Source: Candidatus Bathyarchaeota archaeon
GTDB lineage: Archaea; Thermoproteota; Bathyarchaeia; Bathyarchaeales; Bathycorpusculaceae
Direction: 5' to 3'
DNA length: 64,000 nt
Assembly (NCBI GenBank): GCA_026014745.1
Contig: JAOZHS010000003.1
Coordinates: 228,137-292,136, forward strand
Of the stretch, positions 7,593-17,516 are shown piece by piece (position 1 is the first letter of the stretch; every line of letters begins with the position of its first letter). The notes beneath the pieces are model-generated. The model worked only from the letters and a program-made list of their open reading frames with translations, had not been told where the DNA came from and ran no database searches. A program made the translations under genes and the position numbers.

Positions 7593-8669
7593 GTGGAAAG
7601 CGATAAGGTGAACAACAAAGAAGGTCACGTTAAAAAGGAATTATCCTTGGGGTTATGGGAAAAGTACCTTACTCTATGGATAGCCCTGTGTATCGTTGTG
7701 GGGTTACTTGTGGGGCAGTTTATTCCTGCTTTCGGTCAGTTTATGGATTCCCTCAAATTCGCTAAACTGTCCATTCCAATCGGGATATTGCTTTTCTTTA
7801 TGATGTATCCGACTGTGGTTGGAATACAATTTAGTGACGTTAAAAAGGCTGCGCGTAACCCTAAGCCGCTTATTGTTACAATTATAGCTAATTGGATTAT
7901 TGCTCCACCGCTTATGACTTTCTTGGCAAACGTGTTTTTTGCTGGAAATCCGCAATACGTTGCTGGTTTAATCCTCTTAGGCTTGTCTCCATGTACTGCT
8001 ATGGTTATGTGGTGGATGTTTCTGGCCAGAGGGGATATGGCACAAGGCTTGATTAATACAGCTTTTAATGCACTTCTGATGCTTGGGTTGTATGCTCCAT
8101 TAGCTGCAATCTATTTGGGCGTTAGTAGTATCCCTGTTCCTTGGGATTTGATTGCTATAAGCGTTTTAGTGTTTATTGCCTTGCCCGTTGGCGCTGGAGC
8201 GCTATCTCGCCGCCTCATTATTCGTAAGAAAGGGGAGGAGTGGTTTAAGGACAAATACAATCCGGTAGTTGGCAAAATTTCCATAGTTGCTTTGCTGCTA
8301 ACATTGATTGTTCTTTTCTCCTTTGAGGGTAAAACCATATTGACTAACCCTGTTTTGGTTGCTTTACTTGCAGTGCCTCTGCTGATACATTACGCTATTA
8401 TGATTCTTTGGACTTATCCGCTAGGTTACTTTTCAGGCTGGAAATATGAAAGCGCCATTGACACCACAATCATAGGTAGCAGTAGCCACTTCGAGGTCGC
8501 TATAGCAGTAGCTGTCACACTTTATGGAATTGGGTCGGATGCGGCTTTGGCAACAGTAATCGGACCACTATTAGAAGTGCCGCTTATGCTCTCTCTTGTT
8601 AAACTTGGGCTAAGGACAAGAAAATATTTTCCGCGAAAACCAAAGAGCATAACTAACCCACCTATCTAA
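7593..8669 (+). CDS. acr3: ACR3-type arsenite efflux transporter
   Basis: 358 residues with about ten membrane helices. The segment LGLSPCTAMVMWW carries the invariant cysteine of the fourth helix of Acr3, and PIGILLFFMMYPTVVGI is the second-helix signature. The C-terminal part (SSHFEVAIAVAVTLYGIGSDAALATVIGPLLEVP) is also typical. It exports As(III), probably proton-coupled. The start is GTG 7593. The last codons and the TAA (8667-8669) lie inside an 82-bp repeat shared with the mobile element end, so the native C-terminus may have been replaced. No arsR or arsenate reductase is adjacent. Confidence 0.9.
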   Translation: MESDKVNNKEGHVKKELSLGLWEKYLTLWIALCIVVGLLVGQFIPAFGQFMDSLKFAKLSIPIGILLFFMMYPTVVGIQFSDVKKAARNPKPLIVTIIANWIIAPPLMTFLANVFFAGNPQYVAGLILLGLSPCTAMVMWWMFLARGDMAQGLINTAFNALLMLGLYAPLAAIYLGVSSIPVPWDLIAISVLVFIALPVGAGALSRRLIIRKKGEEWFKDKYNPVVGKISIVALLLTLIVLFSFEGKTILTNPVLVALLAVPLLIHYAIMILWTYPLGYFSGWKYESAIDTTIIGSSSHFEVAIAVAVTLYGIGSDAALATVIGPLLEVPLMLSLVKLGLRTRKYFPRKPKSITNPPI

Positions 8670-8742
8670 TTTCTTTGGGTTCTTTGTTTATTCATTTTAA
8701 TCCCTGTGTCGTATTTGCAGGTTTCTAGTTATAAACTTTAAG
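8661..8742. repeat. module P, copy 1: relict of the mobile-element left end (integrase promoter and 5' end)
   Basis: 82 bp closely similar to 9812-9894. Shared blocks are CCTATCTAATTTCT, ATTCATTTTAATCCCTG and TCTAGTTATAAACTTTAAG. On the minus strand it holds a TATA-like GTTTATAAC followed by ATGAATAAACAAAG, a frameshifted version of the integrase N-terminus at 9847. No tRNA or att core is left beside it; it joins directly to acr3. I read it as the left end of an older, decayed relative of the integrated element. Confidence 0.7.
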
Positions 8743-8768
8743 TTGTATGATTACTTCGAGTTCTCAAC

Positions 8769-9473
8769 CTAAAGGCTTTGAGAATGTAGCTTAGCTTTTC
8801 TTCTTCGACCGAACAGTACCACTATTAAAGCTCCAATGGCTAATAAAATGGCAACAACAAAACTAAAGATATAGACTTGCGGGTAAGTTTCAGATTGAAT
8901 CTGTGAGGCGGTTGTTGGCTGTGTTGTGGGGCTGGCAGTGGATTGCACTGTAGGTGTGGGTGTTATGGGGGCAGGCGTTTGAGCCTTAATTATATCATAG
9001 TTAATCGTAAATTCAGGATCTTTGGCGTCAACGTATACACCACCCGAATACCAATAATGAATCCAGTACATTCCGCTCTTAGACGCGGTATAACTAAATG
9101 AATCTCCTTTGGTATCCGGGAAGTTAAGAATAGAACGGGGGGTAGTTCCCCTCTCTTCTTCGAAAGCAAACGAGATATTGAATTTATAATAAGCGTCACG
9201 GGAAATGATAAGGTTTGGATCATTAGGGACTGTCGCTGTGTATGGTCCAAGATTGCTTATAGTGAAAGATGCTTCAATACGGTCTCCAGTTTGCAATTTA
9301 CAAAGAGTGAACGCCTCATCCATGTAACCCCGATAGCGTGCCTGCAAAGTTCGTGTGTAAGTTTCGGAATAGCCATCAACTATTTCAAGTCCTGAGATTA
9401 AGATTATGAACCAAAGCAAACAGCAAATTATTACCTTAATCTTAGGTGTTCTAGCCATGTGTTGTATTTTCAC
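8769..9473 (-). CDS. secreted/membrane-anchored protein, GOLD-like beta domain (cargo of the decayed element)
   Basis: 234 residues. The N-terminal signal (VIICCLLWFIILISGLEIV) is followed by a beta-rich domain at about 45-165 (GDRIEASFTISNLGPY, FSYTASKSGMYWIHYWYSGG), which resembles GOLD-type lumenal/extracellular domains by strand pattern. A Thr/Pro linker and a C-terminal helix (YIFSFVVAILLAIGALIVVL) ending in FGRRRKAK complete it. It should be anchored outside the cell. It lies between repeat modules P (8661-8742) and A (9567-9698), the same slot that holds an unrelated gene at 9906-10829 in the intact element. Function unknown. Confidence 0.7.
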   Translation of the reverse strand: MKIQHMARTPKIKVIICCLLWFIILISGLEIVDGYSETYTRTLQARYRGYMDEAFTLCKLQTGDRIEASFTISNLGPYTATVPNDPNLIISRDAYYKFNISFAFEEERGTTPRSILNFPDTKGDSFSYTASKSGMYWIHYWYSGGVYVDAKDPEFTINYDIIKAQTPAPITPTPTVQSTASPTTQPTTASQIQSETYPQVYIFSFVVAILLAIGALIVVLFGRRRKAKLHSQSL

Positions 9474-9566
9474 GGTTAGAGCTTATATTTTTATTCCATC
9501 GAAACGATTAGCCGATTTTGATTGTTTACTGTTTTGCTGGCAGGGCAGAATCCTTGCTTACAATAA

Positions 9567-9698
9567 GTTCCCTATTTCCCTACGGCGGCGGGGAAGGGGA
9601 TTTAGGGGTGAAGAGGGGGAACTCGTCCATACCTCAACTGTTCCTTAGAGACGGTGGGTGAATTCTACCACTGGCGGAGAAGAGGGAGTCGGGACCGA
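9567..9698. repeat. module A, copy 1: G-quadruplex/hairpin repeat
   Basis: About 132 bp, highly similar to 10914-11042. It contains four G-runs (9590-9593, 9596-9599, 9605-9608, 9615-9619) separated by 2, 5 and 6 bases, a canonical G-quadruplex motif on the plus strand. It also contains hairpin-forming segments such as TTCT...AGAA around 9663-9681. It abuts the integrase relict at about 9703. No ORF with support crosses it. Confidence 0.75.
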
Positions 9699-9702
9699 TG
9701 CA

Positions 9703-9746
9703 ACACCTTTCTTTTTGAGGTCAAAATTACCTCTAAGGGTTGAGCT
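9703..9746 (-). pseudogene. relict of an integrase 5' coding region (older element)
   Basis: Just outside the exact 56-bp att core, about 40 bp still match the current integrase gene (read SAQ.LEVIL then LKK) at roughly four of five positions, with a one-base deletion that breaks the frame. The match stops where module A copy 1 begins, so most of this integrase has been deleted. This explains why similarity to 17303-17346 continues past the core: the left neighbour was itself the right end of a related element. Confidence 0.65.
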
Positions 9747-9802
9747 GATTCAAAATGGGGGCGAGCGGGGGTAAAAGTGGACCGAGCGGGACTTGAACCC
9801 GC
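9747..9802. repeat. attL core, 56-bp direct repeat
   Basis: Identical over 56 bp to 17347-17402. The right-hand 25 bp (9778-9802) is the 3' end of tRNA-Ala (T-arm and acceptor strand, minus orientation). The remainder lies downstream of the tRNA. The next base differs (C9803 versus G17403), which defines the crossover boundary. Only the 3' third of the tRNA is present here, so this is an attachment site and not a second tRNA gene. Confidence 0.9.
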
Positions 9803-9811
9803 CTCAAATAG

Positions 9812-9894
9812 CCTATCTAATTTCTCAGGGGGTGTTTGTTCATTCATTTTAATCCCTGCATTGTTATTGTAGATGTCTAGTTATAAACTTTAAG
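9812..9894. promoter_or_regulatory. module P, copy 2: integrase promoter and 5' end
   Basis: 83 bp matching 8661-8742. On the minus strand a TATA-like AGTTTATAAC (9880-9890) lies about 35-40 bases before the integrase ATG (9847). In the excised circle it would drive the restored integrase. In the integrated state it drives only the int(N) stub, which could shut off the enzyme after integration. Confidence 0.65.
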
Positions 9895-9905
9895 ATAGAA
9901 ATCAG

Positions 9906-10829
9906 TTATCCAAACACATCCACCAATGAACGTTTAGGTCTTGGTCTAATGTCAATATCAAATTCCTTGAGAATAATCGCGCTTTGAATTATGAAGTCAA
10001 AACAGAAGCTAAAGTCTTCTTCTGAGGGGTCTTCAGTTCGTCTTGGAAGACGCTGGATATAGGCGTCTGACTCCCCTCTAAGAGACACCGCACGGGCTGT
10101 TAATAGCTTGAAATGGCTATATTTTCGGTAATCAAGCCCTAGACTGATTATTTTTACAGCATGTTGTAAATCTGCTATCGCATTTGTGATTGTTCTATCC
10201 GTGATTTCGTTATAATAGAAAGTCATGTCTTGCCCAAAGAAGAATGGCGATCGTCCGTATGAATCGCGTTTTCTATCCTCGTAATCATGAATTAACTCTT
10301 CAAAAGCAATAGCTACTTTGTCCATAGCGTCCTCTTTTTTGCCGTCTTTGAGAAGTTGTTTCGCAATAGAAAGTGTTTTTCTTGTTTTTTCGCAACCAAC
10401 CATATCAATTAGTGATATTTCATCAAAGTTTGTTCCGAAAACTGTCGCAGTATTTTCAACCATAAAAGCAAACACATAATATTTCGCCTCGTCAATTGCA
10501 GAACTGGACGGCGGTGTCCCGTGATGTTTAAGTGCTACCCGTATACCGTTCAATTTCTCGATTTGAATTCTTTGCGTTAGCTCATTTTTTCCATTAAGCT
10601 GTAAAATTGGATTTATGTTATTCCAATATTCCCCAAAGTGTAGCTGTTTTACTCCTTTTGAAACACCCAATTTCTCGGCTGAGAGCTCAAGAAATAGCTC
10701 GACCGCATCATGAAAGTGCAATATTGAAACCCAGCAGAAGGGTTCGGGTTCTTTGGATTTTTCAGTACCTAAAGTAACAAGATATTTTATGAAAGAGAGT
10801 CGCTCAATCATTTTCTCCTCGATGCCCAT
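9906..10829 (-). CDS. HEPN-like hypothetical protein (307 aa), element cargo
   Basis: All-helical protein of unknown function. The N-terminal half has ILHFHDAVELFLELSAEKLG and LNGIRVALKHHGTPPS, which resembles HEPN-type helical bundles where a conserved 'N..R...KH' helix faces the active or binding site. The C-terminal half has charged helices, with a short Pro/Arg-rich end (IDIRPRPKRSL). The ATG at 10829 is taken, but ATG 10811 has a better Shine-Dalgarno (GAGGAG). It lies between modules A and P, the variable slot of the element. A role in defence or persistence is possible but not shown. Confidence 0.6.
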   Translation of the reverse strand: MGIEEKMIERLSFIKYLVTLGTEKSKEPEPFCWVSILHFHDAVELFLELSAEKLGVSKGVKQLHFGEYWNNINPILQLNGKNELTQRIQIEKLNGIRVALKHHGTPPSSSAIDEAKYYVFAFMVENTATVFGTNFDEISLIDMVGCEKTRKTLSIAKQLLKDGKKEDAMDKVAIAFEELIHDYEDRKRDSYGRSPFFFGQDMTFYYNEITDRTITNAIADLQHAVKIISLGLDYRKYSHFKLLTARAVSLRGESDAYIQRLPRRTEDPSEEDFSFCFDFIIQSAIILKEFDIDIRPRPKRSLVDVFG

Positions 10830-10913
10830 TCTTCATCCGCTCCATCGATTTCTTTAGTAACTTAAAATATCGTTTATTGCAATTCAGGGGTTAATAATTT
10901 TTGCATAAGCGCA

Positions 10914-11042
10914 AGTCCCCTATTCCCTACGACGGCGGGGAAGGGGATTTAGGGGTGAAGAGGGGGAACTCGTCACTATCTCAATTATTCCTTAGAGACG
11001 GTGGGTGAATTGCCCCAGAGGGCAAGAGGGAGTCGGGACCGA
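10914..11042. repeat. module A, copy 2: G-quadruplex/hairpin repeat upstream of rep
   Basis: About 129 bp. The G-quadruplex motif at 10937-10966 has the same loops (AA, ATTTA, TGAAGA) as copy 1. A hairpin TTGCC-CCAGAG-GGCAA (11010-11025 region) replaces TTCT...AGAA of copy 1, so paired positions changed together. TCTCAA with TTAGAGA and CCCCTA with TAGGGG can also pair. It stands about 300 bp upstream of the rep operon, so a replication origin or a structured RNA are both plausible. Confidence 0.75.
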
Positions 11043-11142
11043 GGCTACTCCCTTCGTGTGTGCATTTACTTTAATTTTTTTAAATTTAAATGGTTTGAGT
11101 TGCGTTGATGGGTTGGATGTAGGCTTTTTTGCTTCGGGTTAA

Positions 11143-11152
11143 GTTTTATATA
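11143..11152 (+). promoter_or_regulatory. TATA-like promoter of the rep operon
   Basis: GTTTTATATAGC around 11143-11154 is a good archaeal TATA box. Transcription would start near 11175, giving a leader of about 185 bases to the first gene. The 11043-11348 region otherwise shows only very short frames (for example ATG 11196, 18 codons). I see no further gene in it. A purine-rich GGAGGAGGT (11331-11339) lies before the first ORFs. Confidence 0.5.
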
Positions 11153-11359
11153 GCAGTTTAGGGGTAGCTTTTTTTAAGCAAAAATCCACGCACCAATGGA
11201 TTATGGAATTTGGTTGCCTGTATATGGAATGTTGATGTTTGGAGCGCTTTGACGTTACCTTCGTGTACGCTTGCTCCGTGTGGAATATTGAATTTGGAAA
11301 TGGGCATGGGAATGGATTGTTTGGGTGCTTGGAGGAGGTTTGCTTAGGATGTCCACACC

Positions 11360-11599
11360 ATGTTCCAAACATCAGAAAAGAATCACGCTTCAATTCAATC
11401 TTCTAACAGTAATTTTATTCCTGATTGCCCTTACAAACGTTTGAGTTGCTTAAAGTACGATTCCGTTTTGCAACGTGCTACTTGTCAAGGTAAGGGTAAT
11501 CAATATTCCGCTATGCGTTGTTGTCGGTTGCCTCCGTGGGTTAAGCCTAAGGATGGTTTTAAGGTGGCTGTTTTGCGTGGGGGGCGTTTGCATGTCTAA
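11360..11599 (+). CDS. cysteine-rich small protein upstream of rep (79 aa)
   Basis: The T-ending codon use matches rep, and the frame ends eight bases inside the rep start at 11592, suggesting translational coupling. Cysteines occur as DCPYKRLSC, RATC and MRCC, a possible zinc-binding set. GGAGGAGGT lies 20 bases upstream of ATG 11360; another ATG (11349) in a different frame is better spaced but encodes only 31 residues. Function unknown; in small rolling-circle replicons such ORFs are often copy-number or DNA-binding proteins, which is inference. Confidence 0.5.
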   Translation: MFQTSEKNHASIQSSNSNFIPDCPYKRLSCLKYDSVLQRATCQGKGNQYSAMRCCRLPPWVKPKDGFKVAVLRGGRLHV

Positions 11600-12617
11600 A
11601 TGGTGGTGGGTTTCTTCGATAAAGGTCGTGTTTGTAGTTATCTGTTTTGTAGGTTTTGCTGGTTCTCTCAGCGGGTATCTGGCAGGCTTTGGGCTTTTGT
11701 TGTTTTGCATGGGTGGTATTGGTGCGACTAAGTGGATTCCTTATTTTCCCGAGTATGACAATTTTGACGCAAAGTGGCGTGATTATTGCGCTTACGAGCA
11801 ATTACACGGCGACATGGGCAACCCTGATGTTTTTCATTTCGAGCATGGCAACTGGATTGTTGTTGGTCATGGGGAGAAAACTAATTGGAAGTGTGGTCAA
11901 TGGAGAAGACATGATATTTGTAACCGTGTTGAATTGCACGCTCAAGCGGACCTGTTGGGTGTGCATCATGCTGGAGAAGTTTTTGTCCACATGGTTCATA
12001 CGTGGTGTCATAGCTATTCGTGTCCAGTTTGTTATTTGAAGGGTGCATGTTTGCGGGAAGCTGAGCATATTTCTCAGCGAATTGAAAAAGCATCAGCGGG
12101 CGGAAAAGACAGTAAAGGTGTATATCATGCGCCTTTGGGTGAGCCTCAGCACGTTATCGTTTCGGCTCCTCAGTCTGATTATAATTTGGCTGAGTTTGAG
12201 CACGAGAAGTGGTGCAAAAAGTGGCGCTCAATAGTCGCTGAAGTGGGAATTATCAATGGCGGTTTCTGTTTCCACGGTTTCAGGTTCGCTGATTACATTG
12301 AATCGATAGAGAAGGGCGTTCCCTACGGGTTTTATTGGTCGCCTCATGTACATATTCTTGGTTTTATTGAGGGTGGTTATGGAAAGTGTCGGCATTGCAC
12401 TAAGACCGAGAAAGTCTATCGTGCTGGTAGCGGTAAAATTGTTAAGAAACACGGGGATAACCGTTTCTGTGCTTCCTGCGATGGTTTTGAAAATAGGGTG
12501 AGACAGAGTTTTGAGAAACACCGCTACATCATCAAAGTAACTGATGAGCGCAAATCTGTTTTTGCAACAGCATGGTACCAACTTTCGCATATGGCAATCA
12601 AGAAGGGAGTTCGGTAA
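11592..12617 (+). CDS. rolling-circle replication initiator (HUH Rep), proximal part
   Basis: The three RCR motifs are visible: QHVIVSAP (motif 1), WSPHVHILG (motif 2, metal-binding HUH, about residues 250-256) and AWYQLSH (motif 3, catalytic Tyr near residue 329). A cysteine cluster CHSYSCPVC (about 139-147) and a second one (CRHCTK...CASC) are like those of haloarchaeal plasmid/virus Reps. The protein nicks the double-strand origin and stays on the 5' end. The start at ATG 11592 gives an unusual hydrophobic segment (residues 10-44); ATG 11709 is the alternative that omits it. The frame ends at TAA 12615, after which the family's conserved end continues in the same frame in the next ORF. Confidence 0.8.
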   Translation: MSKWWWVSSIKVVFVVICFVGFAGSLSGYLAGFGLLLFCMGGIGATKWIPYFPEYDNFDAKWRDYCAYEQLHGDMGNPDVFHFEHGNWIVVGHGEKTNWKCGQWRRHDICNRVELHAQADLLGVHHAGEVFVHMVHTWCHSYSCPVCYLKGACLREAEHISQRIEKASAGGKDSKGVYHAPLGEPQHVIVSAPQSDYNLAEFEHEKWCKKWRSIVAEVGIINGGFCFHGFRFADYIESIEKGVPYGFYWSPHVHILGFIEGGYGKCRHCTKTEKVYRAGSGKIVKKHGDNRFCASCDGFENRVRQSFEKHRYIIKVTDERKSVFATAWYQLSHMAIKKGVR

Positions 12618-12899
12618 ATGAGCATTTCCGCTTGCGTAGTTAAAAGTCGTGTGCGTGGCTTTGTTTGGTTTGGTTCACTGAGTTATCGACGGTTACACAT
12701 AACCTATGAATCCCGTAAGTTACTTTGCCCTTTATGTAAACATGAACTTGAGCCTGCATGTTACTATGGTTCAATGGTTTTTCAGCATGACTCTATGAAG
12801 AGCGATTATAAAACCAACTTCTGGATGCCTCTTAAAGAAAATGGTGAAACTGTTTGGTTACTTGCGCCTGATTTGAAAAAGCATAAGCAGGGTTGGTAG
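12618..12899 (+). CDS. Rep distal part, in the same frame after an in-frame TAA
   Basis: 93 residues beginning with ATG immediately after the TAA of the upstream ORF, in the same reading frame. VRGFVWFGSLSYRRL is the segment that normally follows the motif-3 'SH' helix in related archaeal Reps ('WFGxLSY'), and CPLCKHELEP is the expected C-terminal zinc knuckle. So either a nonsense mutation split rep, or the protein is made as two pieces by termination and re-initiation at TAAATG. The rest of the frame is intact and uses the same codons, which argues that any break is recent. Confidence 0.65.
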   Translation: MSISACVVKSRVRGFVWFGSLSYRRLHITYESRKLLCPLCKHELEPACYYGSMVFQHDSMKSDYKTNFWMPLKENGETVWLLAPDLKKHKQGW

Positions 12900-12949
12900 C
12901 GCTGATCAATAAAGGTTAGGTTCCGCGTCTGGTTATCGTTTGGCTTTTG

Positions 12950-12994
12950 CGTTCCGTTTGGCAAGAGCGACGCGAAGCGCCAGCGAGCGGAGCG
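12950..12994. repeat. GC-rich imperfect hairpin downstream of rep
   Basis: CGTTCCG (12950-12956) pairs with CGGAGCG (12988-12994) with one G-T pair, and GGC (12960-12962) pairs with GCC (12979-12981). The loop is rich in AGCG/GCGA repeats. It is markedly more GC-rich than the surrounding element. It could be a terminator for the convergent genes or a single-strand origin of the rolling-circle replicon. Confidence 0.45.
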
Positions 12995-13035
12995 ATTGTT
13001 AGTTAACTAATTCAGCTTGCAGCATTAGCATGAGT

Positions 13036-13794
13036 TTATATTATACTTGCGGAATCCACAAGTTCTGCGAGAACCACTATTAGCGTTAGAAGTTTGAGGG
13101 CTCTCATAGGACTTATGTTAAATATTGCATGTGCTTTTGTATCTCGAATACCTTGTACCGTTCCTGCGAAAATTAGTTTGTATCCATCTAATTCATCTTT
13201 ATCGATTTGTGTACTATTTTTTGTCCAACTGAGAATGGGATTTTGGCTATCAAATACTCGGTGCATCAAACTGACTCCTGATAACTCTCGTCCTTTGTTG
13301 TCCTTGGGGTAATTAGCTTTCTTTTTTATCATTTCTTCTAGTCTAATTGCCGCGTCTAAAACAGCATTACGGTAATTTCTGCCATTAAACAGCCCTGCAG
13401 ATACTGTTTTGATTTCCGGATGTGTTATTATTTGTTCGAATAGGGCTTGGGCTTTTTCGTCTTCTTTGGTTATTGGAGGCTGGGTTTTTTCTTGAGCATT
13501 AGTAATATCTTCTAAAGTTTTTTCGTAAATCTTATTCGCGTAATTGCTCTTTTCTTCAGTAGTCTGTAGCTTCGAACGGAAAAATACAAAGAAGTCAGTT
13601 AAAGATGGAAACTGTTTGGGCACTTTGATTCCACAGGCAACACAGTTTTCGTCAATTTTTTTGCTTAATGCTGTATATTCCTTCTCTTTGTCGTTTGCTT
13701 CAATTCTTCCCTCAGCGACATGAGTGATTAATGTAGTGATGTTTTTAATCTGGTCCCTGAGCTCAGGGAGCTTGGTCGTGTCAGTCATATGCAA
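13036..13794 (-). CDS. Ymh/TIGR02391-type HEPN family protein
   Basis: The C-terminal half matches this family: GLFNGRNYRNAVLDAAIRLE, GVSLMHRVFD, then GYKLIFAGTVQGIRDTKAH. RDTKAH fits the R-x4-H motif of HEPN ribonucleases. The N-terminal part (about 110 aa) is helical with a CVACG pair. Such proteins occur in plasmids, prophages and defence islands and are suspected toxins or abortive-infection RNases. GGAGG lies six bases before TTG 13794 and twelve before ATG 13788. It is divergent from the DUF262 gene across 107 bp. Confidence 0.75.
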   Translation of the reverse strand: MHMTDTTKLPELRDQIKNITTLITHVAEGRIEANDKEKEYTALSKKIDENCVACGIKVPKQFPSLTDFFVFFRSKLQTTEEKSNYANKIYEKTLEDITNAQEKTQPPITKEDEKAQALFEQIITHPEIKTVSAGLFNGRNYRNAVLDAAIRLEEMIKKKANYPKDNKGRELSGVSLMHRVFDSQNPILSWTKNSTQIDKDELDGYKLIFAGTVQGIRDTKAHAIFNISPMRALKLLTLIVVLAELVDSASII

Positions 13795-13901
13795 TCCAGC
13801 CCTCCTTTATTTTATTTTTAGCTATAAAGATTTAACGAATTTATCTCCTCTTTCTAAACAGATATAACGAAGATAGACCTACAGATTAGCGGTGTATCTT
13901 A

Positions 13902-14966
13902 ATGGTTGTTGATTATAATCCTTGGGAAGCGCAAGTTGGAGATATAAAAGGTCAGTATGACCGCGGTGAAATAATTCCCGATCCCGATTGGCAGAGAGGG
14001 TACATCTGGACCTTAAAAGATGAAAGGTTATTAATTGATTCAATACTTAGAAAAATTCCTATTCCTAAGTTCTATCTTACGGAAGAGTACGATAGCAAGA
14101 AGGGTGCTTGTATACATTATGTAGTAGATGGTCAACAGCGTATAAAGGCGATATATCGCTTTCTTAACAACGAATATACAATCGAAATAGGTGATAAACA
14201 ATATCTTTTCAAGGATTTGGATAGCAAAACTCAACAAAAAATAATTATTTATAAGTTGAGTGGTCACTACATGGTTGATTTCACCACTCCGGATATTGTT
14301 TTCCTATTTGAGCGGTTAAACCGCACGGGTATTAAGCTAACAAATATGGAATTGTGGAATAGTCGGTACTATGGAACAAAAATTCTTACCTTAATTCGCG
14401 ATATTTATGAAAATGTTTTTGATTTTCCAACCAAGCGTGATTACAGAGATTATGATGATACAGACACTCAAAAACTTCAGAAATCTTATGTTGCAGCTGT
14501 TTATACGGAAGAGCAAATCAAGAGAATGCTTCCATTAGACGATATTGTGGACTTATTGAATTGTCTCCATAGAGGAAAGGTGGATAGTGGCAATAAGGCT
14601 GATTTAGAATCGTTCCTTTGGAGTAAAAAAGAGATAGCAGACGCCGAAAGTATAGCTCTTAAAGAGAAAGTCAAATCAATTATAACCAATATTAAGGACA
14701 TTTTTACTAAAAAGGACTTAGAGGATTCACTTTTCAGTAAAAGAACACATTTTATTAGTTTATTACTTGCATTCGGGCTGTTTCCCCCAAGTCACAACAT
14801 ATCCAAGAATTCGCTGACTATCAAAAAGGAATTATTGAATTTCATTGAAAACCAACCGGAAGATTATAAAGAAAGTGTAGCTGGGGGCATTAGGCACAAG
14901 GAAAGACGAGAGTTAAGGGTAAAATACTTCCATGAAATTATTTCTAAGTATTCTAATAAACCCTAA
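13902..14966 (+). CDS. DUF262 (GmrSD N-terminal-like) protein
   Basis: 354 residues. HYVVDGQQRIKAIYRFL is the DGQQR motif of the ParB/Srx-like DUF262 domain, and FLFERLNRTGIKLTNMEL is the family's second signature. In GmrSD type IV restriction enzymes this domain hydrolyses NTP and controls a DUF1524 HNH nuclease. Here no DUF1524 domain is fused; the C-terminal 150 residues are helical. The next gene encodes an unrelated HNH nuclease on the other strand. A defence role is likely by family, and its partner is unknown. Confidence 0.82.
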   Translation: MVVDYNPWEAQVGDIKGQYDRGEIIPDPDWQRGYIWTLKDERLLIDSILRKIPIPKFYLTEEYDSKKGACIHYVVDGQQRIKAIYRFLNNEYTIEIGDKQYLFKDLDSKTQQKIIIYKLSGHYMVDFTTPDIVFLFERLNRTGIKLTNMELWNSRYYGTKILTLIRDIYENVFDFPTKRDYRDYDDTDTQKLQKSYVAAVYTEEQIKRMLPLDDIVDLLNCLHRGKVDSGNKADLESFLWSKKEIADAESIALKEKVKSIITNIKDIFTKKDLEDSLFSKRTHFISLLLAFGLFPPSHNISKNSLTIKKELLNFIENQPEDYKESVAGGIRHKERRELRVKYFHEIISKYSNKP

Positions 14967-14973
14967 ACTATCT

Positions 14974-15576
14974 TTATTTTTTCCATTCAATATGTCCATT
15001 AACTTTATTTTTTTCATAGACTTCTAATATTTGTCTACAAAAATCCATTGTTTGACTATCTTCGATTGCTTTCGATTTTTCGTACAATCGTATAAAGTAT
15101 TTTTTACCTGATTCAGTTTGTTTATAATTCTTCTTCTGGAAGTTATGCTGAGCACAAAGTGTTTCACCATTATCGATTGTAGCTTTTCCGCCTTGGTCTT
15201 TGGGTTTAATATGATCTACTTGTAATTCGACGCCGTTTTCTCGTCCTCTTCCGCAAATAACACACTTGTATCCATCACGTTTCATAATTTCTTCTTTTTG
15301 CACTGGAGTAAAATCTTCTAAATCTCTTTTTTGAACAAACTCTGGTTCATATCGATAAATGCCTTTCGATACTTTGACTAATAATCCGCTTTGTGATAAT
15401 TTTCGTATGGCTCGATCTGGGTCACGTAAGATTTTACCGGTTCGTTTGAGCCATTCTGCAGTTGCCCAATCAACTATTTCCGGATGAGGTATGTTCTTAT
15501 TTGGGTTCTTTTTGAAGTATTCCATTAGTAGGTTTGACTGGGATCCGTTGTTTTCGTCTACGCTTTTTAGTCCCAT
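14974..15576 (-). CDS. HNH restriction endonuclease (type II candidate)
   Basis: 200 residues from ATG 15576, chosen because GAGG lies six bases upstream; the frame is open to 15627. The N-terminal half is a winged-helix-like DNA reader (NIPHPEIVDWATAEW...LSQSGLLVKVSKGIYRY). The C-terminal half is an HNH domain: RDGYKCVICGRG, LQVDHIKPKDQGG and ETLCAQHN, with two Cys pairs for zinc. It starts inside the 3' end of the methyltransferase gene (80-bp overlap), the expected order for a co-regulated restriction-modification pair. The recognition site cannot be read from the sequence. Confidence 0.8.
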   Translation of the reverse strand: MGLKSVDENNGSQSNLLMEYFKKNPNKNIPHPEIVDWATAEWLKRTGKILRDPDRAIRKLSQSGLLVKVSKGIYRYEPEFVQKRDLEDFTPVQKEEIMKRDGYKCVICGRGRENGVELQVDHIKPKDQGGKATIDNGETLCAQHNFQKKNYKQTESGKKYFIRLYEKSKAIEDSQTMDFCRQILEVYEKNKVNGHIEWKK

Positions 15577-16408
15577 TGTTTTCCTCTTGCTTAACAAGAG
15601 CGCTTTCAAATATATGTGCTTGGTCAATTAAGCGTTTCTTTGCTATTTTGCAGTACTCTAAGTCTATGTCTATGCCGATGCTTCTTCTGTTATCTAATGT
15701 GGCAGCTACTATGGTGCTTCCTGAGCCTAAAAATGGATCTAATATTAAGTCATCAACGAAGCTAAATAGTTTTATACAGCGATGGGGGAGCTCAATCGGA
15801 AACGGTGCTGGATGGCCGGTTCTTTTTGCACTTTCTCCATTAAAAGTCCATAATCCGTTTGTCCAATCCATAAAATCCTTTCTAGCTATGTCTGAAATCT
15901 TACTGCCGCTTGTTTTTTTCCAACTGTTCTTATAGAGAACTACAATTAACTCTACAGGGGCAATAACGAAAGGTGCTGAAGCTTTCATCCATGAACCCCA
16001 TGCAGTTCTTCGCGATATATTACCTTCGTTCCAAACAATTGTTGAGTGATATTTGAATCCAACTTTTTTGGCAATTGTTGTTAAATCTGCTCCAACACTT
16101 TGCTGGCCATTTTTGTTTTTATCAAGCGGTATATTGAGGCAAAAACGCCCATCGTTCTTTAACCAATTAAAACATCGAGTCATCCATTTATTCGAGAATT
16201 CCAAATAATCCTCGTATGAGATTTTGTCGTTATGATTATTGTATTTAATATCAACATTGTAGGGCGGTGAGGTTATGATTAGATCTATGGTTTCTTTATC
16301 TAATTGTTTTGTTGTAAGAACGTCTTCGTTAACGATTGTAACCTTGGGGTTTTTGAAGAAGGGCTCTTGCATTTCGGTTTCTCTCTGTAGAGGTTTTTTC
16401 TTTTTCAT
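15497..16408 (-). CDS. type II DNA methyltransferase (beta class, N4-C or N6-A)
   Basis: Motif IV IITSPPYNVD precedes motif I ILDPFLGSGSTIVAA, the beta-class order, and IGIDIDLEYCKIA follows. TSPPY is common in N4-cytosine methyltransferases but also seen in adenine ones. It protects host DNA from the downstream HNH enzyme. ATG 16408 is used; ATG 16375 is possible. The basic C-terminus (GTKKRRRKQRIP) is unusual and overlaps the endonuclease start. With the HNH gene it forms a complete R-M module of the integrated element. Confidence 0.88.
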   Translation of the reverse strand: MKKKKPLQRETEMQEPFFKNPKVTIVNEDVLTTKQLDKETIDLIITSPPYNVDIKYNNHNDKISYEDYLEFSNKWMTRCFNWLKNDGRFCLNIPLDKNKNGQQSVGADLTTIAKKVGFKYHSTIVWNEGNISRRTAWGSWMKASAPFVIAPVELIVVLYKNSWKKTSGSKISDIARKDFMDWTNGLWTFNGESAKRTGHPAPFPIELPHRCIKLFSFVDDLILDPFLGSGSTIVAATLDNRRSIGIDIDLEYCKIAKKRLIDQAHIFESALVKQEENNGTKKRRRKQRIPVKPTNGILQKEPK

Positions 16409-16460
16409 TTAACTTTTTCTGATAGATAATCGCTTTATTTTCTTTTTTTTGAAAGTTTAG

Positions 16461-17516
16461 CTACTTTGGTTTTCTGAATATTTGGTATCCATCTATCTCT
16501 GTAAATTTAGTGAAGCCTGCTTCAGCTAATTCGCACATTTCTTTTAGTGTCGTGGGCGTTCCTACTTGAACAGTCCTTGAAATGTATTCGTCGGTTTTGA
16601 AGTTGATTAAGTGAGTGTAGATTAGAGTATGTTCGATTCGTTTGTGTCCGAGTTGTTGTTTTACAAGTAGGATATCCTTAGTTTTCGCATATAGCATTGT
16701 TGCGTAATAATGTCTTAAGTCGTATAATCTAAACTTGGTTAGCTCTTGTTGGTTGAGTTTCTTGGCCAATTGATTTCTTCTAAGAACCCATATATGGCAT
16801 TGCTTTTTTGTTGGGGGAAACAAAACATCTGTTTGTTTAAAGCAGCACTTTGTAAGGTACTCTTTAAGCATTGCCAAGGTTGGTTGTGGTAGCTTTAGAA
16901 TTCTTGCGGCTCCATTCTTGGCTGTTTTTGGTGTTATCGTTCCGTTTTCTTGATTAATATTTTTTAGTCGTAGCCTATGTAGTTCGACTGGTCTTAGTCC
17001 TGTGTCTCTTAATATGCTAAAAATGGTTACGTATTTTCTGGTAAAAGTCGCGATTATAGCGTTGACTTGTTCGGTTGTTGGTACATTTGGGAGTCTTTCC
17101 TCTCTTGTAAAAAATGGTTTTTCCCATTTCAAGCCGTAGAATTTTACAAAGTGGTCGTATGCGTTAGCGTATGCTTCTTTGTTCGCATTGCTTGATTGCA
17201 GATTAGTAATGTATTCCTTGACAGGCTCTGGGTTGTTTATTTTGGTGCTTTTTGCAAGGTGCCTTAGCCTTCTGCTGTAGCCGTTTATGGTGTCTTCTGC
17301 TTTCCCTTGCTTTTTAAGGTCTAAAATAACCTCTAACGTTTGAGCGGATTCAAAATGGGGGCGAGCGGGGGTAAAAGTGGACCGAGCGGGACTTGAACCC
17401 GCGACTTCCGCGTTGCGAACGCGGCGATCATACCGCTGATCTACCGGCCCGTATTTGCTGGAAATAGTTTGGATTGTGAATTTAGAGGTTTCGGTTTGTG
17501 ATTGCTTGTTTAACAA
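16461..17516 (-). CDS. int: tyrosine recombinase/integrase body, int(C), partitioned archaeal type
   Basis: Catalyses integration and excision at tRNA-Ala. A SAM-like core-binding domain (TINGYSRRLRHLA to FYGLKW) is followed by the catalytic domain with RDTGLRPVELHRL (Arg I), LYDLRHYYATMLY (YxxR in place of HxxR), LGHKRIEHTL and Tyr in LIYTHL. The first ~38 codons of the open frame (17516-17403) are read through the chromosomal tRNA gene and its upstream flank, and are not native. The native start is at 9847. Codons from 17402 (AGSSPARST...) are shared by both copies. Whether the integrated form is expressed from 17516 is unclear. Confidence 0.88.
   Translation of the reverse strand: MLNKQSQTETSKFTIQTISSKYGPVDQRYDRRVRNAEVAGSSPARSTFTPARPHFESAQTLEVILDLKKQGKAEDTINGYSRRLRHLAKSTKINNPEPVKEYITNLQSSNANKEAYANAYDHFVKFYGLKWEKPFFTREERLPNVPTTEQVNAIIATFTRKYVTIFSILRDTGLRPVELHRLRLKNINQENGTITPKTAKNGAARILKLPQPTLAMLKEYLTKCCFKQTDVLFPPTKKQCHIWVLRRNQLAKKLNQQELTKFRLYDLRHYYATMLYAKTKDILLVKQQLGHKRIEHTLIYTHLINFKTDEYISRTVQVGTPTTLKEMCELAEAGFTKFTEIDGYQIFRKPK
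17347..17402. repeat. attR core, 56-bp direct repeat
   Basis: Exact copy of 9747-9802. The part from 17378 to 17402 is the 3' end of the intact tRNA-Ala gene. 17347-17377 lies inside the element-encoded integrase frame. The distance between equal positions of the two copies is 7,600 bp, the predicted size of the excised circle. Confidence 0.92.
17378..17450 (-). tRNA. tRNA-Ala, anticodon CGC
   Basis: 73 nt read on the minus strand. The acceptor stem GGGCCGG pairs with TCGGTCC (two G-T pairs). The anticodon stem CCGCG/CGCGG holds the loop TTCGCAA with CGC at the anticodon. The T-arm GCGGG/CCCGC holds TTCAAGT. The discriminator is A and no CCA is encoded. It decodes GCG. Its 3' 25 nt form part of the att core, so integration of the element left the tRNA intact. 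Confidence 0.92.

Follow-up and report, generated by a model that had tools for sequence, protein, structure and literature searches.

Small integrative plasmids of Bathyarchaeia with a split integrase gene and a passenger-gene slot

Two related elements at one tRNA gene

A 64,000-nucleotide stretch of contig JAOZHS010000003.1 from Candidatus Bathyarchaeota archaeon (positions 228,137 to 292,136; hereafter the window) contains two sequence modules, P and A, that each occur twice around different genes. The arrangement is likely to reflect small integrative plasmids that stacked at one tRNA gene, carry an integrase gene split on integration, and hold a slot for passenger genes between P and A, or between P and a different module, A*, in a second branch. 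A would be a site of the replicon, and short derivatives of the plasmids would be satellites or remnants. The duplication of P and A in the window is attributed to two related integrative elements that inserted successively at tRNA-Ala(CGC). The source genome is coded G000 and the window lies on its contig C3; the other genomes are coded G005, G010 and so on.

A repeat search of the window located module A at 9569-9664 and 10916-11011 (96 nt, 91% identical), with an extension at 9680-9711 and 11024-11055. Module P was found at 8661-8679 plus 8677-8742 and at 9812-9830 plus 9829-9894 (83-89%). The order P-gene-A was kept in both places, as a preliminary description of the DNA had claimed, and within G000 module A was found at these two places only. 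The two enclosed cargo genes both lie on the minus strand and are unrelated, again as described, and the spacing from A to the cargo, put at 85-95 bp, measured 93 and 84 bp. The bases in these gaps had been said to look related, but they aligned locally with a score of 10.0, when shuffled sequences averaged 10.4 (p = 0.57), and the resemblance is chance. The features of the two copies and of their target are as follows.

8661-8742, minus strand: module P copy 1, with a degenerate integrase start (MNKQRTQRN, then a stop; frame read from sequence) and its attachment site (att) lost
8769-9473, minus strand: cargo 1, a 234-aa protein with an N-terminal signal-like and a C-terminal membrane segment (hydrophobic segments at residues 7 and 196)
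9563-9711, plus strand: module A copy 1 (A1), from the repeat search
9700-9802, minus strand: relict of the element 1 integrase, 31 codons long and adjoining A1, with 84% identity to element 2 Int(C)
9747-17402: element 2, a complete integrated plasmid-like element of ~7.6 kb, with 56-nt direct repeats GATTCAAAATGGGGGCGAGCGGGGGTAAAAGTGGACCGAGCGGGACTTGAACCCGC at 9747-9802 and 17347-17402
9747-9802, minus strand: attL, the tRNA-Ala 3' end and the start of the element 1 integrase relict, from repeat comparison
9803-9894, minus strand: module P copy 2, with AAAGTTTATAA, resembling a transcription factor B recognition element and TATA box (BRE/TATA-like), an ATG (9847) and the first 17 integrase codons (MNEQTPPEKLDRLFEAG); from the joined reading frame and an alignment of 18 P modules
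9906-10829, minus strand: cargo 2, a 307-aa protein, HEPN-like by an RVALKH motif only, seen by eye
10912-11055, plus strand: module A copy 2, with hairpin I, the invariant core TTCCTTAGAGACGGTGGG and the hairpin GAGGGAGT...ACTCCCTT; from the repeat search and alignment
11475-12617, plus strand: Rep, a rolling-circle-type initiator by its HxH and YQLxH motifs; homology from near 11740
16461-17402, minus strand: Int(C), the catalytic part of a tyrosine integrase (PF00589, 5.9e-22), in frame with P across att
17347-17402, minus strand: attR, within the intact target gene and overlapping the tRNA 3' end, from the direct repeat
17377-17450, minus strand: tRNA-Ala(CGC), intact, the integration target (ARAGORN)

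Integration splits the integrase gene at module P

Element 2 was delimited by the 56-nt direct repeat at both its ends. The left copy keeps the T-arm end of the tRNA only. On the minus strand, P consists of the BRE/TATA-like sequence, where the promoter was read from sequence, an ATG, and 17 codons that continue into the tRNA repeat. Joining the ends of element 2 gave a single open reading frame (ORF) for a 328-aa integrase, MNEQTPPEKLDRLFEAG-SSPARSTFTPARPHFESAQTLEVILD... The same operation yielded 328 aa in G010 and 328, 323 and 324 aa in three elements of the second branch. Two further elements had open N-terminal frames when joined, the gene being otherwise broken by a stop or by Ns. Since the joined ends restore one integrase, P is the promoter end of a gene that integration splits about 17 codons from its start. 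The integrase gene holds att just past codon 17, and integration separates P from Int(C), which comes to lie beside the restored RNA gene. The elements thus show the SSV-type arrangement, in which att is inside the integrase gene and integration splits that gene. The preliminary description had placed a cargo slot between a promoter side and the integrase end. The slot itself stood, whereas P proved not to be opposed to the integrase end, as it holds the promoter of the integrase gene itself and codons 1 to 17.

PF00589 was the only Pfam model above its cut-off in the integrase, which also matched XerA-like models. Phage_integr_3 (PF16795) was not found above the Pfam cut-off in the element 2 integrase, and the protein is therefore not filed with the SSV-type families despite its like mechanism.

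The two copies are related but not equal. Copy 2 belongs to the complete 7.6-kb element, whereas copy 1 is what remains of a related element that had integrated earlier, at whose tRNA-side end element 2 inserted. The integrase relict that had been noticed at the border of copy 1 sits between the left att and A1, directly outside the left repeat of element 2. The proposal that two related elements integrated in tandem at a single tRNA was supported.

The histidines of H252-x-H254 in Rep were invariant among the 16 relatives, and Y329-Q-L-x-H333 was nearly so, its tyrosine being invariant. PF01446 (Rep_1) matched weakly, in 3 of the 16 (best 1.8e-4). The copy in G010 was 88% identical to the window Rep. 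These motifs point to an HUH-type initiator with a catalytic tyrosine, as in rolling-circle plasmids.

The slot and its passengers across Bathyarchaeia

We searched profiles of P and A in 101 relatives from Bathyarchaeia, taking E < 1e-6 as a confident A, and found the modules in many of these genomes. A confident P lay 0.03-2.3 kb from 11 of the 14 A sites at this threshold, its side and orientation never varying; with a weak P in G008:C74 counted, 12 of the 14 were paired. The stretch between P and A (or A*) is the place of a passenger gene and may be empty. At the same tRNA-Ala gene, G010 carries a full element with an empty slot (P to A about 30 bp), G015 the order att-P-OLD-like ATPase-A-tRNA within 2.15 kb and free of Rep and integrase, and G018 the order P-secreted protein-A with an integrase tail.

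The genes found between P and A encode HEPN-like, OLD-like ATPase, histidine kinase, winged-helix regulator, Alba/DUF1508 and zinc-ribbon proteins, a lipocalin-like protein (by eye) and several secreted proteins. Two outcomes had been named beforehand as refuting the slot, modules confined to the window and a gene always of one family. Neither was observed: the modules recur in many related genomes, and the gene was almost never of the same family, the cargo differing in nearly every copy. An all-against-all comparison of 30 cargo proteins gave small related groups only. These were a histidine kinase pair, a family of surface proteins, and a secreted protein of 128-130 aa whose G010 and G013 versions sit at different sites and are 87% identical. 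A hydrophobic N-terminal segment was present in 12 of 19 P-adjacent genes, compared with 57 of the 302 ORFs that these loci contain (Fisher p = 6e-5), by a crude hydropathy measure applied post hoc, with the cargos already seen, P sites with and without A pooled, and the cargos included in the background. A literature search gave no match for cargo hotspots in integrative plasmids.

The window cargos had earlier been labelled GOLD-like and HEPN-like. Neither label was confirmed, as Pfam, NCBIfam, PADLOC and PDB gave no support where tested. Cargo 2, whose RVALKH string fits Rx4H, matched nothing in PDB sequences, Pfam, PADLOC or NCBIfam, and single-sequence structure models of both proteins were unusable (mean pLDDT 45 and 36).

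A second branch of elements was found in G000:C2, G029, G088, G090 (two) and G077, with a Rep about 38% identical to that of the window. Here P is followed by A*, a module of ~55-56 bp. P and A* abut in G088, G077 and both elements of G090, so that the slot is empty; in G000:C2 and G029 they are separated by the gene for a secreted protein of 256-258 aa. A* was present in 6 of 257 genomes of the class, and by eye it has CGGTGG-(N)-GTGA-TTC in common with A. The element on G000:C2 (L074, about 8550-15390) is a second complete one in the source genome, 6.8 kb long, with a 26-nt tRNA-type att repeat, Rep, a split integrase and the secreted protein in its slot.

Mini-elements and integration targets

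Bacterial cis-mobilizable elements (CIMEs), known from the tandem accretion of integrative and conjugative elements (ICEs) or integrative and mobilizable elements (IMEs), have att sites and no integrase, with a complete relative next to them in the same site. Comparable mini-elements of 0.8-2.2 kb, with att on both sides and no integrase, were found in G015, G012 (two in tandem), G013, G005, G022 and G000, their targets being tRNA, RNase P RNA and putative C/D-box sRNA genes. The CIME arrangement of att on both sides and no integrase inside was present in G015 (2.15 kb), both units of G012, G013 (0.8 kb) and G005 (1.8 kb). Copy 1 of the window, its outer att being lost, lacks it. The tandem units of G012, at an RNase P gene, are 1.7 and 1.0 kb long and have a P each. 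The short derivatives, in which Rep and the catalytic part of the integrase have been lost, retain att, P, cargo and mostly A or A*, and several also keep 30-100 codons from the integrase start; relict integrase starts lie at the right ends of some. A third unit of the source genome, at about 424.0-425.9 kb of G000:C3 (L170 3996-5861), reads att-P-363-aa protein with a C13/caspase-like peptidase domain-A*-att, at a putative small RNA (sRNA) site. Its att copies differ by at least two bases, and their match alone is at chance level.

The att repeats identified several targets: tRNA-Ala(CGC), the T-arm of a second tRNA, the D-arm of tRNA-Arg(CCT), and, in G012, G010 and G022, the RNase P RNA gene at its 3' end. 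RNase P RNA genes stand at element ends in L022 (10012-10313), L164 (8967-9264), L076 (7627-7924) and L068 (11957-12255); the att repeats of the first three fall on the 3' end of that RNA. In G017, P lies near the RNase P RNA gene, and no att repeat was found there. We found no paper that joins archaeal integrases with RNase P RNA targets. Another att target, GGGGGATGATGTCGCCGTCCCAGTCTGATTGGGAAAGATGAAGAA...GACAGACCCC, recurs and is conserved across genomes (L072 9228, L168 8943, L170 3996, L162 2247, L069 9865). Its C/D-box-like motifs suggest a putative C/D-box sRNA gene; Rfam gave no name for it.

Plain decay might account for all of these units, as deletion remnants of ordinary integrated plasmids with neither mobile mini-elements nor a special slot. 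We regard this as a possibility of some weight. It agrees with copy 1, which has no att of its own and a frameshifted integrase start, with G018, which keeps the integrase tail only, and with the imperfect att copies of G015 and G018. On the other hand, the slot already exists in full elements, where it is filled or empty and P and A* abut when it is empty, and largely the same set of parts is found in mini-elements at several kinds of target. Moreover, most integrase starts were in frame across the 18 P modules, as read from the alignment, and one cargo occurs at two different sites in two genomes, as described above.

Module A as a candidate replicon site

Hairpin I of module A was 94% paired, with both sides changed in 3 pairs. 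The hairpin of A* has 8 pairs, which were 100% paired in seven sequences; both sides had changed in 4 of the pairs, and no cell was broken. From these hairpins, from the fact that mini-elements keep the module and from SNJ2, whose likely origin is a hairpin close to rep (PMC13107129), we infer that A would be a cis-acting replicon site, most likely a rolling-circle origin used by Rep. In 84,980 species genomes, only Bathyarchaeota matches to the exact A core scored as A by profile, the others being ~20-30 nt long. Two exact core matches in IMG/VR fell within phage coding genes, and A in viruses was rejected as chance.

Alternatively, A could be a regulatory RNA or a terminator that insulates the integrase promoter from cargo transcription. 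The compensated hairpins in A and A* would suit this, as would the position of A* next to the integrase promoter in empty elements. However, A is retained where the integrase has been lost, conservation does not extend beyond A, neither flank showing a conserved promoter, and a search of Rfam named nothing there, so that a known RNA was rejected. We consider such a role unlikely.

It is very improbable that A or A* is the recombination site of integron-like cassettes, at whose hairpin the integrase inserts genes. A covarying hairpin and the start of an integrase do bracket the cargo, a small ORF of G012:C27 (L017) has an A-like site on each side, and the integron integrase model TIGR02249 gives the integrase 77 bits. 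This score, however, is far under the curated cut-off of 265, there is as a rule one A per unit, cargo has no A of its own and varies in orientation, and neither an array of A nor, with attC models not run, an attC-type array was seen.

The hairpin I half of A was also repeated 0.5-1.3 kb apart with small ORFs between, in L017 (9949-10087 and 10559-10636) and L019 (3336-3392 and 4646-4705). These could be independent repeats of that half.

Other genes of element 2

Behind Rep, element 2 carries the following genes.

12618-12899, plus strand: small ORF conserved behind Rep, 85% identical in G010
13036-13794, minus strand: Hypoth_Ymh-domain protein (PF09509, 7.5e-18)
13902-14966, plus strand: GmrSD N-terminal domain (DUF262-type), a candidate defence gene (PF03235, 8.7e-20; PADLOC NsnA, 3e-34)
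14974-15627, minus strand: HNH endonuclease (PF01844, 8e-10)
15497-16408, minus strand: N6/N4 DNA methyltransferase (PF01555, 8e-47; PADLOC MTase_II, 1e-94)

The Ymh-domain, GmrSD/NsnA-like, HNH nuclease and type II-like DNA methyltransferase genes form a defence-like block at 13036-16408.

Discussion

In the reading that we prefer, a small plasmid would replicate through Rep and integrate through its own integrase, whose gene is cut in the process. The slot between the integrase promoter and A would be a tolerated place of insertion in a compact replicon, where passenger genes may be exchanged. New cargo is probably gained by homologous recombination between co-resident elements with common P and A. 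The short derivatives may persist as integrase- and Rep-dependent, CIME-like satellites, which would be served in trans and so move, or as decaying remnants, which a newcomer to that att site could take up.

Several observations weigh against this reading. Neither strand of A folded better than shuffled sequence (z -0.5 to +1.5), and no free circular form was seen. Searches of IMG/VR gave no relatives of Rep and no A*. Imperfect att copies or frameshifted integrase starts in several mini-elements are consistent with plain decay. Other genes lie between A or A* and Rep in G010, G000:C2 and G088; as A and A* do not always adjoin Rep, the constant neighbour of A is the slot and not Rep. In addition, A* occurs five times in G026 (L187-L191) with no P, inside unrelated repeats near contig ends. 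One such repeat carries the 3' end of an apparent IS110-type transposase gene (by eye), and another is a unit of roughly 200 bp resembling a miniature inverted-repeat transposable element. These copies do not form P-cargo-A units and were not counted. The A* hairpin is common to integrative plasmids and the G026 repeats.

A broader proposal, which we put forward tentatively and think rather doubtful, is a gene-cassette economy in Bathyarchaeia. Integrase-less, usually single-gene elements, made up of att arms with P and the integrase start, a passenger and an origin-like hairpin, would be replicated and moved in trans by a co-resident Rep and integrase. They would be stacked at tRNA, RNase P RNA and sRNA genes and would deliver mostly secreted surface proteins and candidate defence proteins.

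The integrase-less elements resemble CIMEs in having att and standing beside a complete relative. They differ in being archaeal, 0.8-2.2 kb long, usually with one to three genes and often with a cis hairpin module, and their mobility is putative.

In the suicidal SSV-type elements (SSV1, pTN3, pT26-2), att lies inside the integrase gene, which integration divides into an int(N) and an int(C) part. Insertion is mostly into tRNA genes, relatives can stack, and the intact integrase of another element could excise them (PMC8371274). PF16795 is the domain given for the SSV, pTN3 and pT26-2 suicidal families (PMC8371274). The Bathyarchaeia elements are like these in the att within the integrase gene, its splitting on integration, the tRNA targets and the stacking at one site. 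They are unlike them in an int(N) of only about 17 codons before att, in a PF00589/XerA-like integrase instead of PF16795, in targets that include RNase P RNA and a putative C/D-box sRNA, and in being small Rep-encoding replicons with a cargo slot beside the integrase promoter.

The nearest archaeal survey, in the part available, describes cryptic integrated elements of Thaumarchaeota that are small, use tRNA targets, insert in tandem and in one case carry a rolling-circle Rep (PMC6563490). These start at 2.6 kb, and that part of the survey gives no fixed cargo slot and no integrase-less single-gene forms. P2-like phages and P4-like satellites, according to the accessible portion of PMC9122126, have a fixed place in a compact element with a different, often defence, gene in each copy. 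Compared with what is given there, the slot in Bathyarchaeia, a feature of integrative plasmids, has the start of a split integrase on one side and a hairpin site on the other, and most cargo is a secreted or membrane-anchored protein. Archaeal integrons combine a tyrosine recombinase, passenger genes and hairpin DNA sites close by (PMC9668308), whereas here the integrase falls under the integron cut-off, att is inside the integrase gene, and no attC array was seen (attC models not run). The elements can be placed among integrative plasmids, distinguished by a fixed cargo slot and by integrase-less derivatives.

The P-to-A slot provides a searchable list of passenger genes, including candidate defence genes and many secreted proteins, in a poorly known and largely uncultured class of archaea. 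Integration that splits the integrase gene now covers a family in which the N-terminal piece is very short. It also reaches RNase P RNA genes and a putative C/D-box sRNA, targets that were not found in the literature searched. The persistence of split-integrase elements also becomes testable, since the presence of integrase-less derivatives at the same site predicts that they would be rescued in trans.

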